Positions 3,820 through 24,998 of a DNA stretch of 25,118 nucleotides are shown one piece after another; within the stretch, counting starts at the first letter, position 1; the number at the start of each line of letters is the position of its first letter. The DNA is from a virus. The translations under genes were made by a program, and so were the position numbers. Where the stretch lies: positions 1 through 25,118 of IMG/VR virus record IMGVR_UViG_3300009071_000064, one strand, 5' to 3'. The notes below the pieces were generated by a model. The model was not told the DNA's origin and did not search any database. It saw only the letters and a program-made list of their open reading frames with translations.

Positions 3820-5265
3820 ATGGCAGCAATTAACCCAACGGCTGGGTCGAATTTAAACTCAACTCCAGCCCCAAAACAACAAACCCTTTCTAGTAACTAT
3901 ATTGACTTTACGTCATCTAGTACTGAAGGTTGGGCTCAACAATATCTACCTGATATTATAGAAAAAGAAGCTGAGGTGTTCGGTAATAGAACTATCTCTG
4001 GTTTCCTTTCTCAAGTAGGTGCTGAAGAGGCTATGACAGCTGACAGAGTAATCTGGTCAGAACAAGGTAGACTACACATCTCTGTAACAGGAGTATCTGT
4101 AGCAAACGCTGGTACTATTACTGGCGCAACTAATCACGGTGTTAGAGTTGGTCAAACTATCGTATTATCTGATGGTGAGTCTAGCCCTACAATAACAAAA
4201 TGTTATGTTTCTGCAGCTGATTCAGCAGCAGGTACTTTAACAGCTCTTCCTTATGCAGTAGCAACTGTTGGTGCAGTAAGTGGATTTGTTACAACTGATG
4301 ATGACGCTGCAGCTAGATGTTCTTTCTTCGTTTATGGATCTGAATTCAAAAAAGGAGATAGCGGAATGTCTAACGCAGTAACACCTCAACATAAATCTCA
4401 TGTGAACAAACCAATTATTATCAAAGATAAATTTGAAGTAAGTGGTTCAGACGCATCAGCTATTGGTTGGGTAGAAATTTCAGGTGAAGAAGGTCAAAAT
4501 GGTTACCTATGGTATTTAAAAGCTGAAGGTGATACAAGAGCTAGATTCTCTGATTACTTAGAAATGGCATGTATAGAAGGTGAACTTGGTGTACCTGGTT
4601 CTTCTGCAGTAGATTCAGAATTATCTGGAGCTGGTGCGGATTTTGGTACTGAAGGTTTATTCGCAGCAATCAATGACAGAGGTCACGTTACTTCTGGTAT
4701 CGTTGGTACTAGTGCAGCAGATGACTTAGGATCTTTTGATAATATCCTTAAGAAATTTGATGGACAAGGTGCGATTGAAGAAAACATGTTGTACTGCAAC
4801 AGAAGTGTATCTTTAGCAATAGATGATATGCTTGCAGCACAAAATTCTTATGGTTCAGGTGGTACTTCTTACGGAGTATTCAGTAACGATGAGGATATGG
4901 CATTAAATTTAGGTTTCTCTGGTTTCAGAAGAGGTTCTTATGACTTCTACAAATCTGACTGGAAATATCTAAACGATGCTTCATTAAGAGGTCAAGTAGA
5001 TGGCGATTACAACGACGTTAGAGCGGTTGTAATTCCAGCTGGTGTATCAACTGTTTATGATGAGTCTTTAGGTAGAAATATGAAAAGACCTTTCTTACAC
5101 GTAAGATACAGAGCTTCACAATCTGATGATAGAAGAATGAAAACTTGGATCACTGGTTCAGTTGGTGGAAACATCACTTCTGATCTTGATGCAATGGAGG
5201 TACATTACCTATCAGAAAGATGTTTAGTTGTTCAAGGAGCTAATAACTTCATGATTCTTAACTAA
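3820..5265 (+). CDS. Major capsid protein
   Basis: Main shell protein, expected HK97 fold, several hundred copies per virion. It has 481 residues. After a flexible N-terminus rich in Ser, Pro and Asn, the sequence WAQQYLPDIIEKEAEVFGNR (residues about 38-57) looks like the N-terminal arm and first helix typical of this kind of capsid protein. Residues about 90-145 (VRVGQTIVLSDG, KCYVSAADSAAGTLTALPY) may be a small beta insertion. The call rests on place after scaffold, size, composition, and two expression signs: an A/T leader before it and a strong terminator after it. Phe codons are 13 TTC to 6 TTT, whereas the visible portal gene has 1 TTC in 17, which suggests codon selection for heavy translation. 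I am sure of the role, but the fold is inferred rather than demonstrated. Confidence 0.92.
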   Translation: MAAINPTAGSNLNSTPAPKQQTLSSNYIDFTSSSTEGWAQQYLPDIIEKEAEVFGNRTISGFLSQVGAEEAMTADRVIWSEQGRLHISVTGVSVANAGTITGATNHGVRVGQTIVLSDGESSPTITKCYVSAADSAAGTLTALPYAVATVGAVSGFVTTDDDAAARCSFFVYGSEFKKGDSGMSNAVTPQHKSHVNKPIIIKDKFEVSGSDASAIGWVEISGEEGQNGYLWYLKAEGDTRARFSDYLEMACIEGELGVPGSSAVDSELSGAGADFGTEGLFAAINDRGHVTSGIVGTSAADDLGSFDNILKKFDGQGAIEENMLYCNRSVSLAIDDMLAAQNSYGSGGTSYGVFSNDEDMALNLGFSGFRRGSYDFYKSDWKYLNDASLRGQVDGDYNDVRAVVIPAGVSTVYDESLGRNMKRPFLHVRYRASQSDDRRMKTWITGSVGGNITSDLDAMEVHYLSERCLVVQGANNFMILN

Positions 5266-8112: not shown

Positions 8113-11100
8113 ATGTCAGAGTTAAAACATCATTTTAGAGCCGGTAAAATGAATAAGGATCTAGACGAAAGGCTAGTTCCTAACGGTGAATATAGAAATG
8201 CAGAAAATATAGAAATATCTACATCAGAAGGGTCTGACGTAGGCGCTGTACAAAATGTTTTAGGTAATACTAAATTAGTAGGTAAGACATATGACGCTAA
8301 CACAAAGGTTTTATCTGCAACTGGGTGGGATGATGTGTCAAACGCTATTGATGATTTAACTAATCCCACGTGTATAGGATCAATAATAGATTATCAAAAT
8401 AATAAAATATATTGGTTTATAGCTGCAACAGGAGTTAGTTGTATAGCAGAATATACAGAATCAACAGGTGTTATAGCACCAATATTAGTTGATAAAAATA
8501 GTATACTAAATTTTAGTTCAAGTTATCCTATTACAGGTGTTAATATTATAGACGGCTTGTTATTATGGACAGACAACCAACATGAACCTAAAAAAATAAA
8601 AATATCTTCATTTAAATCTGGTTCTACAGATTTTAATACTCACACAACTTTTAATAGTGTTGCTTTTACAGAAAACGATATTACTGTAGCAAAGTTAGGA
8701 CCAATAAATGCGCCAACGCTAACAATGGCTAATTCAAAAAGAACTGGCAATGGAACAGGTACTACAAAAGTATACTCGCGTTTTAAATTTACAGACGGTA
8801 GTGGTGATCCTTTAGCAGCTCAAACTTCAGTTACTTTAGCATTAACTCCATCTGCTAATTTCAAGAAAGATGATATTATAACGCTGAGTCACACGGATGA
8901 AGAAAATGAAGAGTACACAATTAAAGTATTAATTACTAAATTAAACAACTTCACAACAGCTTTAACTAACAATATAACAGGTAAAATACAGACAATACCT
9001 TCAGATACACCTAATGAAACAATACAATGGTCAGTTTTATTAGATGAAGAAGAGCCAATGTTTGAAAAGAAATTTGTAAGATTTGCATTACGATGGAAGT
9101 ATAAAGATGGAGAGTACTCAACGTTTTCACCATTTTCAGTTCCTGCTTTTTTACCTACAAACTTTGAGTATAAATCCGCAGATGGTCACAATATAGGTAT
9201 GTTAAATACACTAAGATCTTTAACAGTTAACTTACAAGATACACAACCCGCTGATGTAGATGAGGTTGACATATTATATAAAGAATCAAGTAATAATTTA
9301 GTTTATGTTGTTGACACGCTTAAAAATAACGAAACATCATACGAGATACAATCTGAGATAATTGGAAGTGTTGTAGATTCTAAACAAATATTAAGACCTT
9401 GGGATAATGTACCTAAAAAAGCTTTAGCACAAGAGATTACAGCAAACAGGTTAATATATGCTAACTACTATCAGCAGTATGATATTTTAAAACAAAATAT
9501 ACCTAATGTAGAAACTGCTATAACTTCAAATGATATAACAACTATTAAAACCCCTCAAAAATCTTTAAAATCACAAAGAACATATCAAGTTGGTGCTGTT
9601 TACAAAGACGCTTATGGTAGAGAAACACCTGTATTTTCAAATAAAAAAGCAGCAAAACAAATTGATAAGTCTTTTGCTAATAAGGTTAACTCGCTACAAT
9701 GTAAGCTAGTTAATGACGCACCTGACTTTGCAACACATTATAAATTTTTTGTTAAAGAAACTTCTAATGAATATTATAATATAGCATTAGATAGATTTTA
9801 TTTAGCTGATGATGGTAATGTTTGGTTAAGTTTTCCCTCATCTGAAAGAAATAAAATACAAGACGATAGCTATTTAATACTTAAAAAACAACATGATAAA
9901 GATATTGCTATATCTGTTGATGCTAGATATAAAGTTTTAGATATTCAAAATGAAGCGCCTAGAAATATAAAAATGGTATCACAGTCTGTTGCTAACTCAA
10001 AATTAGAAATATTAGACGGTGCTATTAACGCGCCACAAGTTGGAGCTGTTGCATTTCAATTAAAAGGACCTAAGTATTCAGAAAATAATAAATTTGCTGA
10101 TGGGTTAAATGGTGATGGTGTAATAACATTTACAACATCTGGTGGAACTACTGGTCAGTATAAAATATCAAATGGCGGTTTAAACGGTGAAGCAGATGGT
10201 AGCGGTGATAATAAACACATTTATGATTTTGTTTTAAAAGATCCTATAAAAGATGTTGACTCAACAATACTTGGCAGTAGTTATGTTGAAGATAATGACA
10301 CTATAACAATAAAGTTATTTGAAGAAAGAGAAGTTGAAAAAGCAGAGTTTTATGGTAGATTTTTTGTTAAAATAAATAGGAACTCAGTTTTTGATACAAA
10401 TATAATACAATCATTTCCAGCTCTAGATACTGAATATAATATATTATATAGTAGAGATGTCGATCAAGATGTAACTAATGACTTTTCAAGAACTATATCA
10501 GATGATGGTGTAACAAAGAAAAAAGCAAGATCTGATTTAGCTTGGACTGATACTAAAGCAAAAGATGATTTTACGCAAGTAGCAAATATACACCCGGTGT
10601 TAGGAAAAAATACATTTACAGTTTATTGGGCAGGTGTTAATTATGGTGAAGACTGGCAAGATAATGTTACAAGTGATAAGGGTAAGAAACATAATGAACT
10701 AGATACAGTTAATCAGTTTTTAGAAAATTTATCTAACTCTGGCACGTATATACAGTTTGCTAATGCTAATGGTGATACTGGTGCTATATACGAAATAACA
10801 GATGCTACAATTGACTATCAGTTTAGAAGAAAAAGCGGTAGAAATAGAAAGTTTATAGCTGGAAAACGTAGAGCGTATAACTTGACAATAAAAAACACAG
10901 ATACTGGTGAAGGTTATGATGATGCGTTTACATATAGTGGTTCTGGCTCAACAGGTAGAATTACAAAAATAAATATAATGCAAAAAGATTTACCTTTAGG
11001 TAATGATATGATCTCATCTTCAAATCCAGCAATATTTGAGACAGAGCCTAAAGAATCAATAGACTTAGATTTATATTATGAAATAAGTGATGCATACCCA

Positions 11101-14100
11101 ATTATAAAACCTGGCATGACAGTTGAACATTTTAAAGATGAAGATGGAGTGTTGATTTCAATACCTTTGATTCCAGCTAGTACAACAATCACCTCAATTA
11201 CAGATGTTAATAATTTTACTTTATCTGCAAATACTACAGGAATAATAGCAAGTGGATCAACATTAAAGATAACAGACTCAAAAGGTATTTATAGTTTTAA
11301 TGTTATAACAAATGGTAGTATAGCAAGTTCAACAGCTGCTGTTGTGATAGCAGATGGTGATTTTCATGGTCACACACAATCATTAAATTGGTTTAACTGT
11401 TATAGTTTTGGTAATGGTGTTGAATCAGATAGATTAAGAGATGATTTTAATGCTGTTAAAATAGACAAGGGAGTTAAAGTATCAGCGCCACTCGCAGAGC
11501 AATACAAAGAAGAACATAAACAAAATGGTTTAATATTTTCAGGTATATTTAATTCAACAAGCGGAATAAATAGATTAAATCAATTTATACAAGCAGAACC
11601 TATAACAAAAGATATTAACCCATATTATGGTAGCATACAAAAGTTACATGCTAGATTTGGTGATTTAATTACATTATGTGAAGACAAAATTTTAACAATG
11701 TATGCTAATAAAGATGCTTTATATAATGCTGATGGGTCTGCAAACTTAACAGCTACAAATAGAGTATTAGGCAGTGTTAAGCCTTTTCCTGGTGAATACG
11801 GTATATCTAAAGATCCTACGTCATTTGTATCGCATGTAAATAATGCTTATTTTACTGATAAAGCTAGAGGAGCTGTTCTCGCGCTCTCTGGCACACAGTT
11901 AATCAATATATCAGATCAAGGTATGAGAGACTGGTTTAAAGACAACCTACCAGCATCTACGTCATTAATAGGTACATATAACCAAAACAAAGGTCTATAC
12001 AATTTAACGGTTAAAGGTACAACTGATTATACTTTAAGTTATGACGGTAAAGTGAAAGGCTGGCCAAGTTTTAAATCATTTATTCCAGAGTCAGGGTGTT
12101 CGTTAAATAATAAGTATTATACTTTTTATAATGGTGAAATATGGGTACATACAAACACAACAAGAAATAACTTTTATGGTACTCAATACGATTCATCTGT
12201 TAAGGTTTTAATTAACGATGTTTCAGATACTATAAAAGGGTTTAAGACTATTTCTTATGAAGGTACTGATGCAAAAGAATATACATATCAAGGTGTAATA
12301 ACTATTGATGGTTCAGGTAACGACTTAACAGATCAAGGTTTAACTGATATAAAAATACCTGGTTACACAATGGGTGAGTTAATAGAAGGTGGATATTCCG
12401 AGGCACAAATAGCACAGTTAAGTGAAACAATATCAAGAGGATGGCATGTTGATTCTATAACAACAAACGAAGATACTGGTTCAATAAGAGAGTTTAAAAG
12501 AAAAGAAGGCAAGTATTTTAATTACATAAAAGGAGATACAACTGTTTTATCAAACGTTGATTCAGAAGAGTTTTCAGTGCAAGGTATTGGTCAACTAGCA
12601 TCTATAGCTGGAAATACATCAATAAGTGGATATGCTGCTGCAATAACTGTTGCTGCTGAAACTGGATTAACTATAGCTAGCGTTACAGATTCAGCTGCTA
12701 GCTCACACTGGGTATTAGACGGTAATGTTATAAGAAGATATAATAATGCAAGTGGTTTTAATGTAGATGATTTCAATGATTTAAAAATAACATTTACAGC
12801 TGATAATGGTTATGCATTACCAAGCAGTCAAACTATTTCATCACAAAGTCCAACTGCTTTTATAGCTATTGGATCAGGTACTTCAACTTGGAATAGTTCA
12901 ACTGGTGTGTTAAGACTTCAATTTGCAAGTTTAGCTGCTTCTGCAGATACCAATTTAGCAATTAGTTTAGATTTAGCAAATGGTGGTACACTTAATACAT
13001 ATTCAATTGCTGGTACTTATGATGTTGTGGCAGAAAATACAGATTTAAAATCTTCTGTTGAAACAGCATACACTAACACAGGAGAGTATGCAAGCAGTGA
13101 AGTTGTATTAACTAGAACATTTAATGCTAATACTGGACACTTTTTTAATACACGTGCAACGTGTGAAATAATAAAACAAGATAATGATGATGAAAGTCTT
13201 TATACTATAACACAAACAACACCAACTGTAGGTAATGGTGGTAAAGATTCAGATGGAAATATAATTAAAGAGGTATTTTCAATTACGTATAAGTATGGCG
13301 CAGCTAATGTAACTGGAGATAAGCTTTTATTTACAGCAAAAGCAGAAAAAATATTTGTAGCACCTACTGTTGAAATAACTGGTTTAGATGTTAATACTAA
13401 GTCAATAAGCAGAAGAGGTGAAAACAGAACACTTACAGTTGTAGGTGTAGATACAGCAACATTTAAAGTTAGTAGAATAGTAAGTGATGGCACGAAGCAT
13501 TATTGGGATGGTGATTCATGGGAGTTAATTCCTACACAATTAACAATACCATCAACTGGTCAATATGCAATAGCTGAGGTTTATGCATCATCAAGCACAT
13601 CAAAAACGTTTAAATATGAAATTGAAGATGCAACTATAGCAACAAACTTTACAGGATCAAACCCAGTAACATTAAATCAATATGCTGATGTTACGTTGAC
13701 ATTTAATGCGGTTACTTCTAATGCTAAAATACACCCAGGAACTGGATCATCAGCAACTGCAGATACAGTAGCAAGTTCTTATTATAGTTTAGGTGAACCA
13801 TCTGCTGAAGAATCATCTGGAGCTATAGAACTTGAATTCTATATATACAGAGCAGCAGCAGGGGATGATGTAGATGATCATATAATACCTACATCAGCTG
13901 GTGTTACTGAAGATGATTTTACAAACAATGCAACAGAATTAACAACAGCTTCTGCTGTAGGAAATTCAACAAACGTTACATTGAGTAGTGGTAGTAATAG
14001 TTTAGTTGCCGGTATGGTTGTAACAAGTACAAGTATATCGCCAGTTGGAACAGAGACTGAGGTAACTATTGCTTCTATAAGTAATACTGCTTTAGTTTTA

Positions 14101-14973
14101 TCATCCGCACAAACAATACCATCTGGTGAAACATTAACTTTTTCACCGCCTAACAGCTATGAGTTTAGCATAGCCAATATTACTGGTGCAGCAGCAGCGG
14201 ATACAACAGCTACAGGATCAGGTAGTGCTGGTACAGCAATGACAATAAGTGCTGTAAATAGTAATATTAAAGTGGGTATGCACATATCAGGTACTAATGC
14301 ACACGCAAACGCTAGTGTAACAGCTATAAGCGCAGACGGTTTAACTATAACAATGTCAGACGCTGCTAGTGGAACTATGTCAGGTACATATAGTTTCTTA
14401 GGTCAAAATGCTGACAGTGAAATTTATGTATATAAAATAACAGCTGATATTGAAATAGAAAAATATGGATCAGCAGATTTAACATCACAGTTGTTACTTG
14501 ATAAATTTTTAACACATACTGATGATAGCAGTAGTGGAACTGGTGGTTCTACTGCTACGGCAATGACTATTTCAGCTGGAACTGATGGCTCGGTATTAGC
14601 AAACTTAACAACACATACGCCAACTATTAACAGGCATATGATATTCCAAAATACAGCAGACGGAACTACAAAAACTGGAACTATTAGTGTAACTGGTAAC
14701 TTTGATGGTAATTCATTATCACAAATTGAAATTGTAGCTCCAGCGGCAACTAACACACAATTAAGCGCTGTAACATTTACAAACAAGAGATTTGCTAGTG
14801 GTTATACCGGTAGTACAACAACAGGTACAGCAAGTGGTAGCTCAACAAAAATAATGATTGATTACTCAGTTAACTTAGATAATGACAGTGGTGGTGCAGC
14901 AACAGCGGCTAATATTACAACTGGGTATAACGTGGCAGTACACGTTGGTGGATCTAACTTTAATACACCTTAA
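8113..14973 (+). CDS. Giant tail nozzle / stabilization-type protein with adhesin-like C-terminal half
   Basis: A 2286-residue tail protein. The N-terminus (GKMNKDLDERLVPNGEYRNA, residues 11-30) is the signature I associate with stabilization or muzzle proteins of crAss-like and related podovirus-like phages, in the slot of P22 gp10 and T7 gp12. Residues to about 1400 show many repeated beta segments (YQVGAVYKDAYGRETPVFSN; NWFNCYSFGNGVESDRLRDD), probably a beta-propeller-type nozzle through which DNA leaves. From about 1400 to the end composition changes to Ser/Thr/Gly/Ala-rich beta repeats resembling Ig-like or adhesin domains. A small module around GM-x-V recurs at residues 999-1054, 1947-2010 and 2040-2095. 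No coiled-coil fibre shaft or peptidase motif is seen. Since no separate tail-fibre gene is present here, the C-terminal half may supply receptor binding; that is inference. Confidence 0.82.
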   Translation: MSELKHHFRAGKMNKDLDERLVPNGEYRNAENIEISTSEGSDVGAVQNVLGNTKLVGKTYDANTKVLSATGWDDVSNAIDDLTNPTCIGSIIDYQNNKIYWFIAATGVSCIAEYTESTGVIAPILVDKNSILNFSSSYPITGVNIIDGLLLWTDNQHEPKKIKISSFKSGSTDFNTHTTFNSVAFTENDITVAKLGPINAPTLTMANSKRTGNGTGTTKVYSRFKFTDGSGDPLAAQTSVTLALTPSANFKKDDIITLSHTDEENEEYTIKVLITKLNNFTTALTNNITGKIQTIPSDTPNETIQWSVLLDEEEPMFEKKFVRFALRWKYKDGEYSTFSPFSVPAFLPTNFEYKSADGHNIGMLNTLRSLTVNLQDTQPADVDEVDILYKESSNNLVYVVDTLKNNETSYEIQSEIIGSVVDSKQILRPWDNVPKKALAQEITANRLIYANYYQQYDILKQNIPNVETAITSNDITTIKTPQKSLKSQRTYQVGAVYKDAYGRETPVFSNKKAAKQIDKSFANKVNSLQCKLVNDAPDFATHYKFFVKETSNEYYNIALDRFYLADDGNVWLSFPSSERNKIQDDSYLILKKQHDKDIAISVDARYKVLDIQNEAPRNIKMVSQSVANSKLEILDGAINAPQVGAVAFQLKGPKYSENNKFADGLNGDGVITFTTSGGTTGQYKISNGGLNGEADGSGDNKHIYDFVLKDPIKDVDSTILGSSYVEDNDTITIKLFEEREVEKAEFYGRFFVKINRNSVFDTNIIQSFPALDTEYNILYSRDVDQDVTNDFSRTISDDGVTKKKARSDLAWTDTKAKDDFTQVANIHPVLGKNTFTVYWAGVNYGEDWQDNVTSDKGKKHNELDTVNQFLENLSNSGTYIQFANANGDTGAIYEITDATIDYQFRRKSGRNRKFIAGKRRAYNLTIKNTDTGEGYDDAFTYSGSGSTGRITKINIMQKDLPLGNDMISSSNPAIFETEPKESIDLDLYYEISDAYPIIKPGMTVEHFKDEDGVLISIPLIPASTTITSITDVNNFTLSANTTGIIASGSTLKITDSKGIYSFNVITNGSIASSTAAVVIADGDFHGHTQSLNWFNCYSFGNGVESDRLRDDFNAVKIDKGVKVSAPLAEQYKEEHKQNGLIFSGIFNSTSGINRLNQFIQAEPITKDINPYYGSIQKLHARFGDLITLCEDKILTMYANKDALYNADGSANLTATNRVLGSVKPFPGEYGISKDPTSFVSHVNNAYFTDKARGAVLALSGTQLINISDQGMRDWFKDNLPASTSLIGTYNQNKGLYNLTVKGTTDYTLSYDGKVKGWPSFKSFIPESGCSLNNKYYTFYNGEIWVHTNTTRNNFYGTQYDSSVKVLINDVSDTIKGFKTISYEGTDAKEYTYQGVITIDGSGNDLTDQGLTDIKIPGYTMGELIEGGYSEAQIAQLSETISRGWHVDSITTNEDTGSIREFKRKEGKYFNYIKGDTTVLSNVDSEEFSVQGIGQLASIAGNTSISGYAAAITVAAETGLTIASVTDSAASSHWVLDGNVIRRYNNASGFNVDDFNDLKITFTADNGYALPSSQTISSQSPTAFIAIGSGTSTWNSSTGVLRLQFASLAASADTNLAISLDLANGGTLNTYSIAGTYDVVAENTDLKSSVETAYTNTGEYASSEVVLTRTFNANTGHFFNTRATCEIIKQDNDDESLYTITQTTPTVGNGGKDSDGNIIKEVFSITYKYGAANVTGDKLLFTAKAEKIFVAPTVEITGLDVNTKSISRRGENRTLTVVGVDTATFKVSRIVSDGTKHYWDGDSWELIPTQLTIPSTGQYAIAEVYASSSTSKTFKYEIEDATIATNFTGSNPVTLNQYADVTLTFNAVTSNAKIHPGTGSSATADTVASSYYSLGEPSAEESSGAIELEFYIYRAAAGDDVDDHIIPTSAGVTEDDFTNNATELTTASAVGNSTNVTLSSGSNSLVAGMVVTSTSISPVGTETEVTIASISNTALVLSSAQTIPSGETLTFSPPNSYEFSIANITGAAAADTTATGSGSAGTAMTISAVNSNIKVGMHISGTNAHANASVTAISADGLTITMSDAASGTMSGTYSFLGQNADSEIYVYKITADIEIEKYGSADLTSQLLLDKFLTHTDDSSSGTGGSTATAMTISAGTDGSVLANLTTHTPTINRHMIFQNTADGTTKTGTISVTGNFDGNSLSQIEIVAPAATNTQLSAVTFTNKRFASGYTGSTTTGTASGSSTKIMIDYSVNLDNDSGGAATAANITTGYNVAVHVGGSNFNTP
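13951..14397 (+). repeat. Tandem diverged beta modules in the tail protein
   Basis: Two protein-level copies of one module. The first (13951-14142) reads VTLSSGSNSLVAGMVV, TEVTIASISNTALVLS and ETLTF. The second (14230-14397) reads MTISAVNSNIKVGMHI, ASVTAISADGLTITMS and GTYSF. Shared skeleton: (V/I)xxGMx(V/I) - Tx(V/I)xxIS - L(V/T)(L/I)(S/M)S - x(L/Y)(T/S)F. A third, longer version lies earlier at 11107-11274 (KPGMTV, TTITSITDVNNFTLS). Such modules are common in marine phage structural proteins. The DNA copies have diverged, so duplication is old or the module arrived separately. Confidence 0.6.
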
Positions 14974-15363: not shown

Positions 15364-16044
15364 ATGGCATTACCAATAATGGCAGCGGGTATGGCCGCAA
15401 AAGCAGCAGGACAAGTAGTTGGTGGCTTAACCAACATGGCTAGTGGTATCATAGGTGGAGGCGCTAGAAGAAGAGAGCAAAGAGAAGCTCAGAAGGAATA
15501 TGATATAGCAAGAGCTGCAGCAAGAAACGTAGACACATCAAACTTAGCTGCTAACATGCAAAATACAATGGAAGATTTAACTGTTAACACGCAAGCAGCA
15601 GATTTTGCAGCACAGCAACAACAGCAGGGATTAGCAAACACTATGAGCGCTATGCAGGGAGCAGCAGGCGGATCAGGTATAGCAGCTTTAGCTCAGGCTA
15701 TGGCGGGTCAACAGTCTCAAAATCTACAAAGAGCTTCTGCTGATATAGGACAGCAAGAACAGAGAAACCAAATGGCAGCGGCACAACAAGCGGCAAGTAT
15801 ACAGCAGCAACAAATAGCAGGCGCTAGTCAAGCAAGAAATTTAGAAGGTCAAGTAGTACAACAAAACTTAGATATTGGCATGGCAAGAAAACAAGCTGCA
15901 GATGAAGCAAGGCAAGAGGCAACATCAAACATAATGAGTGGCGCAGGTCAGTTTGCAGGTGGAGCAGCAGCGGCTGCAATGTTAGGTAAAAAAGGCACAG
16001 GAGCAGGTGGTATTGGAGGTTTTGTACAAGGTATGTTTAATTAA
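15364..16044 (+). CDS. Ala/Gln-rich internal virion (ejection) protein, T7 gp14-like by position
   Basis: A 226-residue protein of strongly biased composition. The N-terminus (about residues 4-33) is a hydrophobic Gly/Ala stretch (MAAGMAAKAAGQVVGGLTNM, then ASGIIGGG) with glycine-zipper spacing. The centre (about 35-180) is a Gln/Ala-rich helix without proline. The C-terminus (about 192-226) is again Gly/Ala-rich and hydrophobic (GAGQFAGGAAAAAMLG, GAGGIGGFVQGMF). Small proteins like this in the first slot of an ejection block, such as T7 gp14, leave the virion and form the pore in the outer membrane. The pore role is inferred from order and composition. The leader holds the palindrome AAATTTAAATTT. 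Confidence 0.72.
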   Translation: MALPIMAAGMAAKAAGQVVGGLTNMASGIIGGGARRREQREAQKEYDIARAAARNVDTSNLAANMQNTMEDLTVNTQAADFAAQQQQQGLANTMSAMQGAAGGSGIAALAQAMAGQQSQNLQRASADIGQQEQRNQMAAAQQAASIQQQQIAGASQARNLEGQVVQQNLDIGMARKQAADEARQEATSNIMSGAGQFAGGAAAAAMLGKKGTGAGGIGGFVQGMFN

Positions 16045-16050
16045 TGAATT

Positions 16051-17121
16051 ATGGAAGAACAATATAATATAGCAAATCAAGCACAGCGAGCTTTAATGAA
16101 TAAAATTGAAAGCGGTGACAGTATAGCGCAGCCACAAAAAGCTATGATAAAAAAAATGTTAATGCGAAAGAAAAGTGACTTTATTCAAGCTACGCAAGCT
16201 AAGCAGAGTTTTTCAAGTAACAGTGAAGAAGCTAGCATGTTAAATCAAGAAGAGGATAATATAAAAAGCTCATTTCCAGAAATACAAAATGAACTACAGG
16301 GTTTTCAACAAGGGGCACAGGAGTTTATACAGGACATTAATAGTTTTTCAAAATCGTCTAACCCTAATCACGTAACGGCACTAAGTAGTATATACGCCGG
16401 TAATTATAAAGATTTTACAGAACAAGACGGCCAAAGAGGTTTTGTTTTACCAGATGATAGCTTTATACCTTTAAAGCAAGTTAACATGATGCAGAAAGGT
16501 TTAAATAGACCTGATTTTAAAACATACAACGAGTTAAAAACAAACTCATTTGCTATGCAAGACAAAATATCTAAAGAAGGACCAAGCGCTTGGAATCCAG
16601 CGCAAGCAGAGTTTCAAGTAAACCAAAGATTAGATGATGTTGCTGATGGGCAAGGCGGTAATGATCCAATGAAAAAGAAAGAGCGTTATTTATCTTTAAT
16701 GACAGATACATTTAATGATGATAAAAACTTTGAAACTTTTTTAAAAGAAAAATATCCTAAAATAAACATTGATCCATTAAAACAAATGGTTGAAGAAGGT
16801 AACTATGAGCAGGTTAAACCATTTTTAACAGAGCATTTAATGGAAGGTATTACGCAAGCTGCTAATGCAGGCATGGATGTTTATAATAAAAATAATGCTA
16901 CACAGCCAGAGATTGATTTTAGTAGCTTAGATGCTATTAATAGTGAAATAAGTAGGTTACAAAACTTATCACCACAGGAGCGTTATGATACAGATTACTC
17001 TGAAGGTTCTGTTGAGGGGAGTGTTATTGAAAGAATAGCAAAATTACAAATGCAAAAAGAAGCGTTAAACACAAAGCAAGATCCTAAAAACGCACAAGCT
17101 TTGATAAATAAATATTTATAA
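16051..17121 (+). CDS. Second internal virion / ejection protein, T7 gp15-like by position
   Basis: A 356-residue soluble, mostly helical and highly charged protein with no recognised domain. The N-terminus (NIANQAQRALMNKIESGDSI) and a mid-region (SSFPEIQNELQGFQQGAQEF) look like amphipathic helices. A more compact part contains GQRGFVLPDDSFIPLKQVNM around residue 130. The C-terminal third is acidic, with a final helix (VIERIAKLQMQKEALN). It begins six bases after the previous stop and ends two bases before the giant protein starts. That places it second in a three-gene block matching T7 gp14-gp15-gp16, so a role in the ejected core or periplasmic tunnel is likely. Function is inferred from order only. 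Confidence 0.7.
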   Translation: MEEQYNIANQAQRALMNKIESGDSIAQPQKAMIKKMLMRKKSDFIQATQAKQSFSSNSEEASMLNQEEDNIKSSFPEIQNELQGFQQGAQEFIQDINSFSKSSNPNHVTALSSIYAGNYKDFTEQDGQRGFVLPDDSFIPLKQVNMMQKGLNRPDFKTYNELKTNSFAMQDKISKEGPSAWNPAQAEFQVNQRLDDVADGQGGNDPMKKKERYLSLMTDTFNDDKNFETFLKEKYPKINIDPLKQMVEEGNYEQVKPFLTEHLMEGITQAANAGMDVYNKNNATQPEIDFSSLDAINSEISRLQNLSPQERYDTDYSEGSVEGSVIERIAKLQMQKEALNTKQDPKNAQALINKYL

Positions 17122-17123
17122 AC

Positions 17124-20100
17124 ATGTCTAAATTAGAGCTAGAAAAAGTTGTTAACAATATGCTCACAGATGGTAAGTCAGAAGACGACGTTGCTATTGT
17201 TATAAACGAGTATAAGAAAAAAAATCCTACAATACTAGATGAGGTGACTGTGGAAGACACTAAACTGCCTAATGTTCCGCTGGTACTAGCACCTCAAACA
17301 AGTCCAAATCAATTACAAAACATCCCACAAATACAAACTGAAATAGAAAAAAATATAGAACCATTAAAAGATAAAGATGGTAATCCAATAAAAGCATCTT
17401 ATGAACAAATGAGAGATATAAAAGGCATATCTCAGTTAGATGAAATAAAAAGTTTAACGCAATTTGTTACTACACCTAGTTTACTTAAAATGGAAATGGA
17501 AGGTAAAACAGACGTTTTAGATTTAGATGAAAGTTTAAAAATAGCAGCAGTAACACCTATTAGCTGGATTGCTTCTGCTAGAAAGGCTGTAAATTTAAAA
17601 GCCGGCGTTTTAAATAAAACAATAGAAAAATACGGTTGGAACCCGACAAATTGGGACCAACTAACTAAAGAAGAAAAAATAGCTGTAGAAAAAGAGGTTG
17701 ATAAGCAGGAAATAATTAACTTTGCATCTGGCAATTATGGTATGCCAGGGCTTGGTTTGTCTTTTGTGCCTCCTAAAATAGCAGTTGAAGAATATAAAAA
17801 AGACGTTCAAGATGATTTAACTCAGTATGATGGTGACATACTTACATCATTTCAAAAGGGAAATTTTTTTGATGCAGGAGCACGTATATTAAATGGCTCA
17901 ATACAAACAGCACCAACATTAGCAGCTGCTGCAACTGGTTATGGTGGTATCGCTGCTATGACAGCTGGTATGTACGGTGAAAATTTTACAGAAAACTACA
18001 AGAACAACCCAGAGCAAACATTAGGTATGAATATATTAAACTCTGGTTTAAAAGCTGGAATAGAAGGTGTTGGTGCTATAGCTACTAACAAAATATTATT
18101 TAATGGAAAAATTATTAATAATCTTATTGGGTCAAAAAGCACGGCTGGTAAAAAAGCTGTAAGCGATGTGCTTAACGGTGGATTTAACAGGGTAAAAAGT
18201 ACGTTAGGAGGTATGGTTCTTGAGGGAGGTGAAGAGTGGAGTACAGAATTAGCTGCTGACTTTGCTAACGAAGTGACTAACATCAACAAATTTGACACTG
18301 ATCAAATGCTTGAAAATATGGCAAACTATGATCTACCTACAAAAATGCGTGAAAAAGTAGATGCTGCTATACTTGGAGCAGCTATGGGTGGTGGTACTAA
18401 AACTATACAAAATCTAGGTAAAACAGAATCAGCTATAAAAGAGCATGCTGTTAACTTATTTATGTCAGACGCTGATGCTGATATCATATCTAAAAAAGGA
18501 ACAGAAATAAACGATTTACAACAAAAGTTAGGTAAAGCTGAAACAGATATAGGTAAAGAAATCATTGAAAGACAGATAAATAATAAAGCACAAGAAATAG
18601 CACAAAAAAGAAAGTCACAGTATAATAACTTAAAAAACCTTGAGCCAAAGGAGTTGATTGAATTAGGAACAGAAATTGATAATAAAAACAACTTACTAAA
18701 AAATTTACAAAAAGAAACAGACCCGAGTGTAAAACAAGAAATTGAAAAGGATTTAAAAGAATCAAAAAAGAAAGCAAAAAATTTATTTAATAATGCTACA
18801 AAAAGAAGAGTACAAGAAAATGTGGCAACAGCTAGAAAATCAATAGGCGCTAAAAATGTTAAAGTACATACTAACCCTGATACTTTTCAGAACATTCATG
18901 ATGAATCGACGGGTGCTGATCCAAAAGAATCTATTGACGTTAGTGGTGTTAATGCATTTTATGTTAACGGTACAATGCACATTAATAAAACAGCTGCAAT
19001 AGAAACCGACGCAACTTCAGTTGGTACACATGAAAATCTTCATGATATTACAAAGGCAAAAATAAATGACACAAACGGTAGATTAACACCTGATGGTAGA
19101 AAATTAATTGACGATTTTAGATCACAATTATCTGCCAAAGAAATAAAGGTTGTAGATCAGAGAATTAATGATAATTATAAGTTTGACGAAAATGGCAAAG
19201 AAAAACCATACGATGAGTATGCAGAGGAATATTTAAACCAATTTCATGATGCTGTAGTTACAGGAGATATTAAATATAACGCTACCGATGCTCAATGGTG
19301 GAAAGACTTAGCTAATAGTTTTACTGGTATATTTAAAAAGGAAGGTTTTGAAAATGTTAATTTTGAAACAGGTCAAGATGCATACAATTTCTTACAGTCA
19401 TATAACAAAGCAGCTAAAGAAGGTAAAACAGAAGACGTTAAAAAGTTATCTACAGAATTAAAAAAACAAGGTAGAGATCTTGATACTCAAATAGCACAAG
19501 AAAAAAATCCACAAAAATTAGCTGAATTAAAAAGACAAAGAAAACAAAAACAACAAGAGGTAAGAGAAGCTGTTGCTAACGAAAGTCAAATAAAAAAATC
19601 TGACACAAAAGAAAATGAAATAAATCAGTTAGGGCGTAATGTTACTAAAGCTGAGTGGGATGGTGGTAAAGCAGATCAAGCTATTGGTAATATATATGAA
19701 AAATTACAAGGTTTAATTAAAAGCAAAATACCTGTAAATAAACCACCTGGTTTTTCTGAAACTGATTTTGTAGCGTCTACTATAGGAGAATTAATACCAC
19801 ACATACGTAATTTTAATCCTGAAGTTAATGATAGTTTATCTGGTTGGATTAATTCACAGTTATCAAATAAAATTGGTAATGTGTTTAAAAAAGGAACAGC
19901 AGGGACTAAAGCAGAGTTTGAGCAAGATATATCTGAAGCTAGAGGAGTTGCTGTAGAACAAGAAGTAGAGCAAGAAGTTGATAAAAAACAAAAGGTTACT
20001 AAAAAAGTGTTATCAAAAGAGTTTAATTTTGATAAAAAAGACAAAGCGACAACAGAAGTCATGAAGTCAAAAGACTTTAAAATGCCTGATAGCTACAAGT

Positions 20101-23100
20101 CAGTTAAAGATATGACACCTGAATTAACAGCTGAATTATTTGGTGTTGATCCAAAACAGTATGTTGATCCTAAAAAATCATTAAAAAAAGAAGATATTAT
20201 TGCAGCAAGAACATTTATAAGAAAAAACCCAGAGTTATTATACAATATGTTACCTGAAGCATTAAATGAGCAAGGTAAATCAACTGGCGTAAGAAAATTA
20301 TTACTTGATGCTTTTTATGAAGGTACAGGTGTAAGAAAAGAAGCTGCATTAGGTAGAAGTAAACAGGGATCAGAAGTAAGAACTAAAAAACCATTTAATC
20401 AAAAAGAATTTTTATCAGCACTTGGCATTATTCCAGGGGAAGTTATGAAAGTTAAAAACCAAACTAAGGTATCTGGTATGATATCAGCTTTAATGAACGA
20501 GACTGGTAAAGCCATGACTAATCAAGCTATTAAAAATAATCTTGATGCTGACTTACAAAAAGAGGTAATACAAAAAATAGATGATGGTAAAAATAGAATA
20601 CTATACAGCGACACGCGTGACAAAAGTGGCGTAAAAGAAACGCTAGACAAACAAGCTAAACCTGAACCTGTGAATAAAAGCGGCACTAAAAAAATGGTTG
20701 ATTTTTTAACAGGACCTCTTGCTAAAGTTTTACCTTATGATTTAATTATAAGATCTGGTAATCTTGCGGCTGCCGGAAACGACGCAGCTAGAGCTATAGA
20801 TAGGGGTTTTAGGTTTATTGGTAATTTCGCACGTACAAAAAATGATGCAGATAGAAAACCCACTGATACATATAAAAAAGAAGACACGTTTAAATATCTC
20901 AATTCTGGTATAATAGCTGATTTAGCTGTAGTTAACGCTTTAGCATCAAATACTAAATATGAAGGTAATACTGATACTAATAACATGAGAGAAGCTATTA
21001 GAGGTAAAAACAAAGGCAACATAGATAAAAATATAGCTAACTTAGACTCGCATAAAAAAGGTGTAAAAGAAATATTAACAGAACTAAAAGATTTATATAA
21101 GAAATATCCAAATCAGGTAAGAGAACTATTGTATAATGCAAATGCTAATGCTAGTTTTAATAGAAATTTTGCTTCTTTATTAGACATGGAATTTAATCCT
21201 AAAAATTTAAAAACAGAGGAAGAACACGTTTTTCAAGCTGGTAGAGCAGCAATAAGATCTTTAGAGGCTATGGGTAAATCAGATAAAGTATTTAATAATT
21301 ACTTAGACTGGCTTGCAGATAATTACTATCAAGTAGCTTTAACTAAAGAAACAGCTGACATAGTTGATAAAAGCAAAAAGGCAAAAGAAGCCGGTATTGA
21401 TTTTAAAAGTCAAGAGCATCCACTGTTGCAAGAAGGGTTAGATCAAGCTATGAAGGATGGTGATTTTAGTAAAGTTCCATCTTCAGATATTAGATACTTT
21501 AATGAATATCATCACATAAACCCAAACACAACTGGTTACGCTAAAAAATATAATTTAGAAGTAGATAAAAAACACCACAATAATGCCGACGTCGTAGAGG
21601 CACAAGCTGATCTAATATTTAGACAAATAAAAGGTGAAATAACACCTAAACAAGCTAAGGCTGAAATGGACAGCTATTTAAAATTAGTGACACCAAAAAA
21701 ATCAATTAAGTATTCAACATCTAAAAAACAAAACGAAAGTAATAAAGAATACTTACAAAGAATGAAAAAGTTAGATAAAGCCCTTGAAGTTGCTAGAGAT
21801 CCAAACGCTCCAGAAAAAGGCATATCAATATTTGATTTTGATCAAACATTAGCCAACACAAAAGAAAAGGTTATAGTCACTACACCTGATGGTAAAACAA
21901 AAAAGATAGGAGCGCAAGAGTTTGCTGAAAAAGCTGCTGAACTAGAAGAGCAAGGCGCTGAGTTTGACTTTAAGGAATTTGAAAAAGTTAAAGGTGCAAC
22001 AAAAGGACCGTTTTTTGATTTAGCACAAAAAATAAAGGGAAAGTTTGGTAATAAAGACATATTTATATTAACAGCTAGACCGCAATCGTCTGACATAGCG
22101 ATACAATCGTTTTTAAAAGCTGTTGGGCTAGATATTAAATTAGAAAATATTACAGGTTTAGAAGATGGTACACCTCAAGCTAAAGCTGATTTTGTTATAG
22201 ATAAAGTTGCGGATGGTTATAATAACTTTTTCTTTGGCGATGATGCTTATAAAAATGTTAAAGCTGTGCAGGAAGTTTTAGATCAAGTTGATGTAAAAAG
22301 AGATGTTCAACAAGCTAAAGAACAATTAAATAAAGATATAGACACTGTATTTGATGAGATAATACAGGAAAATACTGGACTAAATAAAAACGCAACAGTT
22401 AGTGTTGCTAAGGCAAAACAAATTGGAGCAACAAGAGGTAGCTGGTTAAAAGATTTCTTTTTAGCACCATCATCTGAAGATTTTACTGGACTAATGTATA
22501 CATTAATAGGTAAAGGTAAAAAAGGTGAAAAGCAATTTGAGTTTATTAAAAATGCTTTAATAAGACCATTTGCTAGAGGTATTAGAGATTTAAATGCAGC
22601 TAAACAAGTTATATCTAATGAGTTTGCTAATTTAAAGAAAATTTATCCAGATGTTACAAAGTCATTACGAAAGCCATCACCAGTAAAAGGTTATAATAAT
22701 TCACATGCTATAAGGGTTTATCTGTGGAATAAAAACGGTATTCCAATACCTGGTTTATCAAAAACAGATGAAAAAGCACTAGTCAAGCATGTAAACAACA
22801 ATTCGGACATGAAAGTGTTTGCTGATCAAGCTGGTCAAATAACAAAGCTTAAAGAAGGATATACAACTCCAAGTAACTCATGGATGATAGGTAATATATC
22901 AACAGACATGCAGGATGTAAGTAATAAAGTTAAAAGATCTGAGTATTTAAAAGAGTATTTAGACAACTATGAAAAAATGTTTACACCTGAAAGGTTAAAT
23001 AAACTTGAACTTATATACGGTAGTAAATTTGTTGAAGCATTAAATGATATGAAATACAGGATGGAGTATGGAACAAACAGATCTCAAGGTCAAGATAGAA

Positions 23101-24380
23101 TAACAGCTGCTTGGCAAAACTGGGTTAATAACTCTGTTGGCGCAATAATGTTCTTTAATATGAGATCAGCGGTGCTACAGACATTGTCATCTGTGAACTT
23201 TGTAAACTGGAACGATAATAATCCATTTAAAGCTGCTAAAGCTTTAGCTAATCAAAAGCAATATTGGAAAGATTTTAGTTATATATTTAATCACCCAACG
23301 CTAAAACAAAGAAGAGCTGGGTTAGATATAGATGTTAACGCTTCTGAAATTGCCGCAAGAGTAGCTGATAGTAAAAATAAAATATCAGCTGGTTTAAATC
23401 ATTTATTGCAATTAGGTTTCACACCAACAAGAATAGCTGATAGTTTTGCTATTGCATCAGGTGGTGCTACGTTTTATAGAAATAGAATTGAAACTTATGT
23501 GAAACAAGGTTTAAGTAAAAAAAGAGCAGAAGAAAAAGCATTTTTAGATTTCCAAGAAATATCAGAAGCAACACAGCAGTCAGCTAGACCTGATATGATT
23601 TCACAGCAACAAGCTGGTCCACTTGGTAGATTAGTATTGGCTTTCCAAGTAACACCAATGCAGTACACAAGATTAATGAAAAGATCAGTACAGGATTTAG
23701 TTGCTGGTAGAGGTGATATGAAAACACATGTATCAAAGATTATATATTATGGCGCTGTACAAAATATGATATTTAATGCACTACAAAGTGCTGTATTTGC
23801 ATTAGCATTTGGTGATGATGAAGAAGATGATGAAGATAAAATGTCAGAAAAAGAAAAAAGAAAAGCAGTAAGAGTAGCAAACAACATGGCTGATAGTTTA
23901 TTGAGAGGTTTAGGTGTTCAAGGTGCTGCTGTAGCTACAGTTAAGAATATGATTATTAAATTTTTAGAGCAAGAAAAACGTGGATACAGAGCTGATCACG
24001 CTTACACAATGATTGAAGGATTAAATATATCTCCACCAATAGGTAGTAAAGCAAGAAAAGTATATAGCGCAACACAAACATATAAATTTAATAGAGATGC
24101 TATAAAAGAAATGGGATTTGATATTGACAACCCAGCGTATGAAGCTGTAGGTAACATTGTATCAGGTACTACTAATGTTCCTCTTGATAGAGTTATAGCA
24201 AACCTTAATAACGTTAGAGCGGCTATGGATAAAAATAATGCGGCGTGGCAAAGAATATCTGTACTTTTAGGTTGGAACGCTTGGGATGTGGGTATACCAG
24301 ATAGAGAGGTAGAAAAAGTAAAACAAGAAATAAAAAAAAGAAAAGCAGAGGAAAGAAAGCGTAAAAAAAGTAAAAAGTAA
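17124..24380 (+). CDS. Giant polyvalent ejection protein: zincin-like, sigma-r2-like, HAD phosphatase, LPD38-like
   Basis: A 2418-residue virion protein in the slot of T7 gp16, probably injected with DNA. Regions in order: hydrophobic helices near residues 259-285 and 309-327 (APTLAAAATGYGGIAAMTAG), then EGGEEWSTELAADFANEV; a coiled coil at about 447-573; a zincin-like segment with HENLH at 636-640 and candidate third ligand in YAEEYLNQFHD (Glu701/702); a second coiled coil at about 774-822; residues 865-925 resembling sigma-70 region 2; a HAD domain at about 1565-1735 with Asp1571, Asp1573 and Thr1575, Thr1650, Lys1687 or Lys1694, and Asp1706-Asp1707; an LPD38-like region at about 2000-2230 (MRSAVLQTLSSVNFVNW; GPLGRLVLAFQVTPMQYTRL); and a very basic C-terminus (KKRKAEERKRKKSKK). 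No single-subunit RNA polymerase motif (DxDGD) was found. Domain positions are by eye. The HAD call is strong, the zincin call moderate, and the sigma-like call speculative. Confidence 0.85.
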   Translation: MSKLELEKVVNNMLTDGKSEDDVAIVINEYKKKNPTILDEVTVEDTKLPNVPLVLAPQTSPNQLQNIPQIQTEIEKNIEPLKDKDGNPIKASYEQMRDIKGISQLDEIKSLTQFVTTPSLLKMEMEGKTDVLDLDESLKIAAVTPISWIASARKAVNLKAGVLNKTIEKYGWNPTNWDQLTKEEKIAVEKEVDKQEIINFASGNYGMPGLGLSFVPPKIAVEEYKKDVQDDLTQYDGDILTSFQKGNFFDAGARILNGSIQTAPTLAAAATGYGGIAAMTAGMYGENFTENYKNNPEQTLGMNILNSGLKAGIEGVGAIATNKILFNGKIINNLIGSKSTAGKKAVSDVLNGGFNRVKSTLGGMVLEGGEEWSTELAADFANEVTNINKFDTDQMLENMANYDLPTKMREKVDAAILGAAMGGGTKTIQNLGKTESAIKEHAVNLFMSDADADIISKKGTEINDLQQKLGKAETDIGKEIIERQINNKAQEIAQKRKSQYNNLKNLEPKELIELGTEIDNKNNLLKNLQKETDPSVKQEIEKDLKESKKKAKNLFNNATKRRVQENVATARKSIGAKNVKVHTNPDTFQNIHDESTGADPKESIDVSGVNAFYVNGTMHINKTAAIETDATSVGTHENLHDITKAKINDTNGRLTPDGRKLIDDFRSQLSAKEIKVVDQRINDNYKFDENGKEKPYDEYAEEYLNQFHDAVVTGDIKYNATDAQWWKDLANSFTGIFKKEGFENVNFETGQDAYNFLQSYNKAAKEGKTEDVKKLSTELKKQGRDLDTQIAQEKNPQKLAELKRQRKQKQQEVREAVANESQIKKSDTKENEINQLGRNVTKAEWDGGKADQAIGNIYEKLQGLIKSKIPVNKPPGFSETDFVASTIGELIPHIRNFNPEVNDSLSGWINSQLSNKIGNVFKKGTAGTKAEFEQDISEARGVAVEQEVEQEVDKKQKVTKKVLSKEFNFDKKDKATTEVMKSKDFKMPDSYKSVKDMTPELTAELFGVDPKQYVDPKKSLKKEDIIAARTFIRKNPELLYNMLPEALNEQGKSTGVRKLLLDAFYEGTGVRKEAALGRSKQGSEVRTKKPFNQKEFLSALGIIPGEVMKVKNQTKVSGMISALMNETGKAMTNQAIKNNLDADLQKEVIQKIDDGKNRILYSDTRDKSGVKETLDKQAKPEPVNKSGTKKMVDFLTGPLAKVLPYDLIIRSGNLAAAGNDAARAIDRGFRFIGNFARTKNDADRKPTDTYKKEDTFKYLNSGIIADLAVVNALASNTKYEGNTDTNNMREAIRGKNKGNIDKNIANLDSHKKGVKEILTELKDLYKKYPNQVRELLYNANANASFNRNFASLLDMEFNPKNLKTEEEHVFQAGRAAIRSLEAMGKSDKVFNNYLDWLADNYYQVALTKETADIVDKSKKAKEAGIDFKSQEHPLLQEGLDQAMKDGDFSKVPSSDIRYFNEYHHINPNTTGYAKKYNLEVDKKHHNNADVVEAQADLIFRQIKGEITPKQAKAEMDSYLKLVTPKKSIKYSTSKKQNESNKEYLQRMKKLDKALEVARDPNAPEKGISIFDFDQTLANTKEKVIVTTPDGKTKKIGAQEFAEKAAELEEQGAEFDFKEFEKVKGATKGPFFDLAQKIKGKFGNKDIFILTARPQSSDIAIQSFLKAVGLDIKLENITGLEDGTPQAKADFVIDKVADGYNNFFFGDDAYKNVKAVQEVLDQVDVKRDVQQAKEQLNKDIDTVFDEIIQENTGLNKNATVSVAKAKQIGATRGSWLKDFFLAPSSEDFTGLMYTLIGKGKKGEKQFEFIKNALIRPFARGIRDLNAAKQVISNEFANLKKIYPDVTKSLRKPSPVKGYNNSHAIRVYLWNKNGIPIPGLSKTDEKALVKHVNNNSDMKVFADQAGQITKLKEGYTTPSNSWMIGNISTDMQDVSNKVKRSEYLKEYLDNYEKMFTPERLNKLELIYGSKFVEALNDMKYRMEYGTNRSQGQDRITAAWQNWVNNSVGAIMFFNMRSAVLQTLSSVNFVNWNDNNPFKAAKALANQKQYWKDFSYIFNHPTLKQRRAGLDIDVNASEIAARVADSKNKISAGLNHLLQLGFTPTRIADSFAIASGGATFYRNRIETYVKQGLSKKRAEEKAFLDFQEISEATQQSARPDMISQQQAGPLGRLVLAFQVTPMQYTRLMKRSVQDLVAGRGDMKTHVSKIIYYGAVQNMIFNALQSAVFALAFGDDEEDDEDKMSEKEKRKAVRVANNMADSLLRGLGVQGAAVATVKNMIIKFLEQEKRGYRADHAYTMIEGLNISPPIGSKARKVYSATQTYKFNRDAIKEMGFDIDNPAYEAVGNIVSGTTNVPLDRVIANLNNVRAAMDKNNAAWQRISVLLGWNAWDVGIPDREVEKVKQEIKKRKAEERKRKKSKK

Positions 24381-24393
24381 GTAATAATAAAAT

Positions 24394-24696
24394 ATGGCAC
24401 TAAACAAAAGTCAAACAACTAAAGAAATATTAAGAATATTAGAATATCAAGTAGAACAGATATTTACTGAAGTTGAAAAGATAAAAGAAGATAACAGGCT
24501 AGCTCACGATGATGTGAAAGACGATTTGCGCTTCATTAAAAATAATCTCTTTGATCCAAAAGAAGGTATATGGACTGAAGTAAAAGAAAATTCAAATTTT
24601 AGAAAAGAAACTGTAAAGTGGAGGAACGCTCTAGGTTTCGGTATATTTAGTTTAATAGGAAAACAAGTGTATGACTTTTTTAAATCACTATCATAA
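24394..24696 (+). CDS. Small membrane protein, holin-like (XhlA-like layout)
   Basis: A 100-residue protein with a charged helical N-terminal two thirds (EILRILEYQVEQIFTEVEKI; DDLRFIKNN) and one hydrophobic C-terminal segment at about residues 77-96 (NALGFGIFSLIGKQVYDFF). There is no signal peptide. This coiled coil plus C-terminal transmembrane layout matches XhlA-type hemolysin/holin-associated proteins. Its position, first of two membrane proteins before an endolysin gene, supports a lysis role. The stop TAA shares its last base with the ATG of the next gene (TAATG), so the two are probably translationally coupled. The holin function itself is inferred; no sequence-specific family match is claimed. 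Confidence 0.68.
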   Translation: MALNKSQTTKEILRILEYQVEQIFTEVEKIKEDNRLAHDDVKDDLRFIKNNLFDPKEGIWTEVKENSNFRKETVKWRNALGFGIFSLIGKQVYDFFKSLS

Positions 24697-24998
24697 TGAA
24701 ACAAATAGAAGAATTAGGCGATAAAACAATAGGTATAGATATAGATGGCGATAAAAAGCCAGACTTTAAAATCGACGTAAAAAGTATTGCGATCGTCATA
24801 GGGTTTGTTATATCCGGCACTATGGGTTATAACAACCTTAAACAAGAAATAGAACTAGCTAAAGAACTACCTACATATGAAGTTAAAGAAACTTCTGATG
24901 GTTTATTGTTAAAGCAAAAGGTTACATACTTAGAAAAGGAAATAGAAAAACTTGAAGAAAGAGTTAGCGATCTAGAAAACAAAGTGTATAAAAGATAA
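24696..24998 (+). CDS. Small membrane protein with DxDGD loop and coiled coil, lysis cassette
   Basis: A 100-residue protein in three parts. Residues 12-27 hold an acidic loop DIDGDKKPD (Asp15, Asp17, Asp19, Asp23) resembling a calcium-binding DxDGDxxxD site. Residues about 31-45 (IAIVIGFVISGTMGY) form one hydrophobic helix, short for a membrane span. Residues about 70-100 form a regular heptad coiled coil (LEKEIEKLEERVSDLENKVY). It overlaps the preceding gene by one base and is followed 23 bases later by the endolysin start. A holin partner or an i-spanin-like bridge are both possible. There is no lipobox, and no second spanin is visible in the window. Exact role unknown. Confidence 0.68.
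   Translation: MKQIEELGDKTIGIDIDGDKKPDFKIDVKSIAIVIGFVISGTMGYNNLKQEIELAKELPTYEVKETSDGLLLKQKVTYLEKEIEKLEERVSDLENKVYKR

Follow-up and report, generated by a model that had tools for sequence, protein, structure and literature searches.

How do podoviruses that have a crassvirus-type tail but no polymerase start transcription? Crassviruses and N4 carry their own RNA polymerase in the virion. One very large gene that may bear on this lies in a whole IMG/VR record of 25,118 bases (IMGVR_UViG_3300009071_000064; this whole stretch is referred to as the window), in which all coding lies on one strand. The gene order is portal (cut at its 5' end), a small gene, a scaffold-sized gene, the probable major capsid protein, three head-tail genes and the muzzle, followed by three small genes, an ORF of 2418 aa and two genes of 100 aa. 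The large ORF runs from ATG through stop with its frame intact (P0001), bearing out the single uninterrupted frame described in an earlier sequence-only reading. The same reading had placed it in the slot of T7 gp16, which is right by position, as it is the last large gene, after the head, the tail and two small cargo-type genes. The principal genes of the window are as follows.

1..2151, + strand: portal protein, 5' end cut at the contig end (phrog_6547, 3.5e-132)
3820..5265, + strand: probable major capsid protein (phrog_13704 virion structural protein, 8e-104)
8113..14973, + strand: muzzle (distal tail) protein, 2286 aa (Pfam crAss_MUZ_C, E 2.8e-8; phrog_14478, 1.7e-118)
15364..16044, + strand: Ala/Gln/Gly-rich cargo-type protein, 226 aa (profile matches phi38:1 gp099, 1.9e-9, and elemo gp20, 2.5e-7)
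16051..17121, + strand: upstream cargo-type protein, 356 aa (profile matches phi18:3 gp121, MS/MS-annotated, E 5.9e-5)
17124..24380, + strand: giant putative cargo/polyvalent protein, 2418 aa (ORF call and relatives)

The last 100-aa gene (24696-24998) encodes one hydrophobic segment and has a weak holin/anti-holin match (phrog_10340, 3.8e-4). The leaders of 14 window genes, judged from the upstream bases by eye and not counted, were A/T-rich with no clear Shine-Dalgarno motif, as expected in Bacteroidota. The relatives of the portal all belong to phages of Flavobacterium, Cellulophaga, Tenacibaculum and Maribacter, apart from one uncultured record, and the MAG contigs carrying relatives of the giant include Flavobacteriaceae, Saprospiraceae and Sphingobacteriales. 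These two lines of evidence support the earlier proposal of a Bacteroidota host, which is the probable one. Relatives were also seen in MAGs labelled Aliivibrio, Maricaulis, Woesearchaeota and Ilumatobacteraceae (L091, L092, L094-L096, L098 and L099); these are more likely misbinned phage contigs than indications of true hosts.

Whole-protein searches of the giant (Pfam, PHROGs, PDB and phage tblastn) returned nothing reliable: no Pfam match exceeded the family cut-off, and tblastn against the INPHARED phage records gave no match, so that its lineage seems uncultured or nearly so. The family is nevertheless large in viral metagenomes, as a single scan identified 154 viral-contig stretches encoding relatives, 80 of which were kept. 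Iterated segment profiles showed the module order NT-zincin (ZN)-SIG-MID-HAD-CT2 to be unbroken in 66/66 complete relatives, which measured 2252-4311 aa; modules other than HAD and CT2 were present or absent by relative, with the order still kept. The length of the N-terminal side varied (s.d. 321 residues) and that of the HAD+CT2 side hardly did (s.d. 44), as in a modular carrier whose C-terminal half is fixed. In the window protein the modules and motifs are located as follows.

17871..18401, + strand, residues 250-426: NT module, small-residue-rich, common to virion proteins of isolated flavobacterial phages
18975..19445, + strand, residues 618-774: zincin-like metallopeptidase domain, by conserved residues (65/88 members, including elemo gp18)
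19029..19043, + strand, residues 636-640: HENLH, putative active-site motif, with candidate third ligand Glu702 at 19227-19229
19761..19904, + strand, residues 880-927: sigma region-2-like core (hhalign, Foldseek, AF2 pLDDT)
19764-20321, + strand, residues 881-1066: SIG module enclosing that core (46/88 members)
20760..21725, + strand, residues 1213-1534: MID module, without known relative (27/88 members)
21759..22493, + strand, residues 1546-1790: HAD phosphatase domain, nearest to PNK-type phosphatases (phrog_415 match, conserved motifs)
21834..21842, + strand: HAD motif I, D1571-F-D1573, conserved in relatives
22071-22079, + strand: HAD motif II, T1650-A-R1652, conserved in relatives
22182-22184, + strand: HAD motif III, K1687, conserved in relatives
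22239-22244, + strand: HAD motif IV, D1706-D1707, conserved in relatives
22491..24296, + strand, residues 1790-2391: CT2, all-helical conserved C-terminal module (81/88 members)
24288..24377, + strand: Lys/Arg-rich tail, net +8 over the last 30 residues

The net charge of the tail agrees with the very basic C-terminus noted earlier. The hydrophobic helices claimed near the N-terminus were overstated: Kyte-Doolittle means over 19 residues nowhere rose above 1.4, peaking at 1.04 near the N-terminus (265-284) and at 1.32 in the protein as a whole (2210-2230). A Pfam Tox-PLDMTX match at residues 340-402 (E 0.013) was set aside, being below cut-off and in a small-residue-rich region. An LPD38 identity for CT2 was likewise set aside, with no match in the window to an LPD38 set of 3 sequences only. 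PADLOC on 16 family members gave one marginal match. Two relatives had divided frames: in L043 (12900-13120) the reading frame shifts at HAD motif I and breaks the ORF, through an assembly error or a real split, and in L036 (11700-11900) the giant is present as two ORFs (1978 + 968 aa) with the break before HAD and a local sequence repeat near the junction.

The HAD domain was reported earlier as carrying all its motifs, and indeed motifs I-IV are present and are invariant or nearly so in 31 full-length aligned sequences, the catalytic residues being kept in about 70-80 relatives. The closest family of the window domain was phrog_415 'polynucleotide kinase' (E 2.4e-4), and the PDB profile matches included no HAD proteins other than mammalian PNKP, at E about 1. 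The HAD+CT2 half was modeled with an AF2 pLDDT of 79 (residues 1540-2400); in Foldseek, where a search with this whole model is swamped by helices, the best probabilities went to the HAD proteins 9jz1 (0.66) and 1zjj (0.60), both weak matches with E above 2, at about 3. In three relatives HAD motifs I and II are separated by an inserted 212-aa P-loop kinase with the Walker A motif GGPGAGKT (L060:11849-12493, L061:10328-10972 and L074:10319-10963). The L061 insert matched phrog_505 polynucleotide kinase at 1.1e-12, and further matches of the kinase were to Pfam AAA_33 (3.7e-14, for one member of alignment A2, a set including L061) and T4 Pnk 1ly1 (0.008). Other, unrelated-looking inserts occur in the HAD of L039 and L040 (77 aa) and of L034, L051 and L067 (54-56 aa). 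Varied inserts at about the same HAD position indicate that insertion has happened repeatedly at the cap site. Inteins were considered for these inserts and rejected, as the 212-aa insert is a P-loop kinase and those of 54-77 aa are too short.

Rather than being an unspecified effector, the phosphatase probably acts on nucleic-acid ends. PNK-HAD phosphatases of jumbo phages, usually with an N-terminal kinase, have been assigned to RNA repair (PMC7824862). An RNA-repair role is weakened here by the lack of any RNA ligase or RtcB match in 17 larger relatives; PF09511, PF00940 and PF18818 gave no match either, but their controls were silent, so that result is uninformative. The missing ligase also fits a phosphatase acting on small molecules or nucleotides and having no link to nucleic-acid ends, as do the weak matches of generic HAD models (TIGR01509, 0.0022 for L046) and the softness of HAD family assignments at such E-values. 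Against this reading, which is somewhat unlikely, stand the best match of the window domain to a polynucleotide kinase family, PNKP as the sole HAD among the PDB profile matches and the kinase inserted in L060/L061/L074. The known counter-defence repertoire would be widened by a virion-type protein whose phosphatase harbours a kinase.

The N-terminal part of the giant bears on its carriage in the virion. The gene order portal-scaffold-MCP-tail-muzzle-small cargo-giant was found to be the same in Cellulophaga phi38:1 and, with insertions, in phi18:3, Flavobacterium elemo phages and uncultured MW202828. This synteny is backed by homology for most genes, as profiles of window genes matched the counterpart genes. 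An NT HMM built from environmental sequences only matched the giants of Panino (3e-25), elemo (gp18, 1e-21), phi38:1 (gp101, 1e-20) and phi18:3 (gp123, 1.5e-11) and none further among 475 background sequences, reversed and shuffled ones included. Both gp123 and gp121 of phi18:3 are annotated in the record as 'structural protein, experimental MS/MS'. The SIG, HAD and CT2 modules were in none of the giants from 5 isolates/records compared, so the MS evidence reaches the NT module only. Hence the virion carriage proposed earlier is well supported by analogy, and we infer from gene order and the NT module that the giant would be packaged. The Panino protein (Maribacter phage PP540027 CDS0069; L088:18229-23718, - strand) is annotated as a tRNA methyltransferase, yet it has the NT module; it also shows a sub-threshold LPD38 match (E 1.8e-5) near its C-terminus. 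By its sequence, this protein is probably a cargo polyvalent protein as well.

A protein of this kind could be mainly an ejectosome or structural component resembling T7 gp16. NT and CT2 would then form or line a channel across the envelope, and the parts between them (zincin, sigma2-like and HAD) would be degenerate or scaffold folds with no function directed at the host. CT2 is the most conserved module of the family and is all-helical, the NT module is common to structural proteins of several phage families, and the giant adjoins two cargo-type genes, all of which suit a structural role. Against this, conservation at the zincin and HAD catalytic residues far exceeds that of the surrounding sequence, a strictness that a dead scaffold would not need, and in three relatives the HAD has gained a kinase with a Walker A motif. 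A purely structural function is therefore unlikely, and a polyvalent cargo protein with working domains is preferred.

The sigma-70-region-2-like stretch noted earlier at about residues 880-930 proved real by profile-profile comparison and predicted fold. With hhalign, the SIG profile matched 30 Bacteroidota-MAG sigma sequences at E 8.5e-6 (probability 83%, 46 columns) and the wider SIG alignment A4 matched the same sequences at E 2.6e-4; the best control, among ZN, NT, HAD and HAD+CT2 alignments and 20 column-shuffled ones, reached E 0.15. An AlphaFold2 model of residues 596-1078, made template-free from an alignment to which no sigma sequence had been added, gave pLDDT 90-96 in the sigma-core helices. 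Sigma factors made up 44 of the best 50 PDB matches of this model in Foldseek, individually poor at E 0.5-4.5; the cleanest, the SigE N-terminal domain 8b3z (rmsd 2.8 A, 75 columns), was also the top PDB match by sequence profile (E 0.56). Pfam Sigma70_r2 was the family matched by most SIG members, yet by 3/39 only (best E 0.013). In the printed alignment, read by eye, the window segment has an ECF-like pattern (W, N, K/R) and not the primary-sigma WW pair. A sigma-70 region-2 fold for the SIG core is thus supported, by sequence profiles and by the predicted model.

Against full-length cellular sigmas, the top-scoring local profile alignment spanned just the region-2 core (46-50 columns), with no region 4 found, and SIG is present in only 46/88 members, so sigma-type promoter recognition is doubtful. 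This restriction to a region-2-like core of ~46 aligned columns would also suit an anti-host decoy that blocks host sigma binding instead of aiding phage transcription; such a decoy would likewise bind core RNAP, and we regard it as quite unlikely. The preferred reading is that of a domain favouring phage transcription.

HENLH is present, as had been stated, and is the sole HExxH in the protein, with 0.0065 expected per shuffled copy. In alignment A5 (51 sequences), E25, H28 and E90 (= E637, H640 and Glu702) are invariant and H24 (= H636) is nearly so, and H-E-x-x-H is kept in 31/31 full-length sequences of two alignments. Matches of individual members to peptidase families were weak (M78 in 4/51, SprT-like 2, M1 0.0012), and because the HExxH motif itself drives part of them, conservation is the stronger evidence. 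Profile and PDB searches of the domain gave no curated match; curated LPD and MPTase-PolyVal domains had no match above cut-off in the giant, but the MPTase-PolyVal control was silent too. The predicted model places HENLH within a helix, after two short strands, and its Foldseek list of best 50, filled by sigma factors, held no peptidase. Structural matches for the proposed domains were accordingly uneven, being found for sigma, weak for HAD and absent among those 50 for the protease. A zincin that cuts host proteins instead of processing its own chain, an option given by Iyer et al. (2017; PMC5512222), is very unlikely, as that study prefers processing as the unifying role and a mid-chain place in a giant modular protein fits cleavage between units.

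Taken together, an ejection-cargo polyvalent protein with self-cleavage, RNAP binding and end-healing is the overall reading towards which we lean. The giant would be the ejection cargo of a crAss-muzzle-type podovirus of Bacteroidota, packed in the capsid beside the cargo-type proteins of 226 aa (15364-16044) and 356 aa (16051-17121), and would enter the cell by way of the portal and tail, either before the DNA or together with it, the NT module and helical C-terminus possibly serving packaging and passage. In crassviruses the cargo occupies capsid and tail, and its ejection is believed to proceed N to C with the chain partly unfolded (PMC10172136). The zincin (HExxH...E) may then cut the chain, most likely its own, freeing the units, in line with the proposal that polyvalent proteins are cut by their own zincins so that their activities separate (PMC5512222). 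The sigma2-like domain could bind host RNA polymerase and thereby favour early phage transcription; transcription start has been proposed as the first service of phage polyvalent proteins (PMC5512222). The PNK-type HAD phosphatase might strip 3' phosphates from the ends that host nucleases leave on nucleic acids or perform a related nucleotide clean-up, joined in three relatives to the polynucleotide-kinase-like domain. Delivery and early action of the giant are plausible. No Rpb1-type (cellular multisubunit) RNAP was found in 17 relatives of 35-72 kb, where a positive control was detected; a T7-type polymerase was not found in the relatives, but its control was silent. A bolder version, in which the virion-delivered sigma2-like domain, released by the zincin, captures host RNAP at DNA entry in a lineage without its own RNAP and, with the end-healing phosphatase and the kinase of some relatives, forms a pre-packed transcription and repair kit acting before phage gene expression, is speculative and rather improbable. 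If true, an ejection protein with a sigma2-like domain would answer in concrete terms how transcription starts in polymerase-less muzzle podoviruses.

Among known systems, cargo gp45/gp46 of crAss001 is comparable in being large, virion-packed, probably ejected and carried by a muzzle-bearing podovirus (PMC10172136). In contrast to the crAss001 virion RNAP gp47/49/50 (PMC10172136), the giant is without the RNAP motif DxDGD, which is sporadic among its relatives, and no Rpb1-type RNAP was found in 17 of these. With phi18:3 gp123, phi38:1 gp101, elemo gp18 and Panino CDS0069 it shares the NT module and a position directly behind the muzzle and small cargo genes, and with elemo gp18 the zincin module too, whereas all four are without SIG, MID, HAD and CT2. 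A lytic transglycosylase of the T7 gp16 type had no Pfam match in the window protein. Resemblance to T4-type polynucleotide kinase-phosphatase lies in the HAD 3'-phosphatase-like domain and in the PNK-like kinase of three relatives; unlike the N-terminal T4-type kinase, that of the relatives sits between HAD motifs I and II, and the window protein has none. The polyvalent-type multi-domain protein of the sequence-only reading is supported by zincin, sigma2-like and HAD signatures in one chain. Like the polyvalent proteins (PMC5512222), the giant is a large modular chain with a zincin-type common element and unrelated predicted activities in one polypeptide, predicted to be injected and encoded by a phage with portal/terminase (here the portal at 1-2151). 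By analogy it would fit the polyvalent scheme with the sigma2-like part standing where N4 has an RNA polymerase. It differs in its sigma2-like and PNK-type HAD modules; 'sigma' and 'phosphatase' are absent from the main text of Iyer et al. (2017; PMC5512222), in agreement with the earlier suggestion of an undescribed domain set. The polyvalent class is thus already known, and what is new against the published catalogue is the sigma2-like and PNK-type HAD modules, together with the relatives that carry a kinase within the phosphatase.
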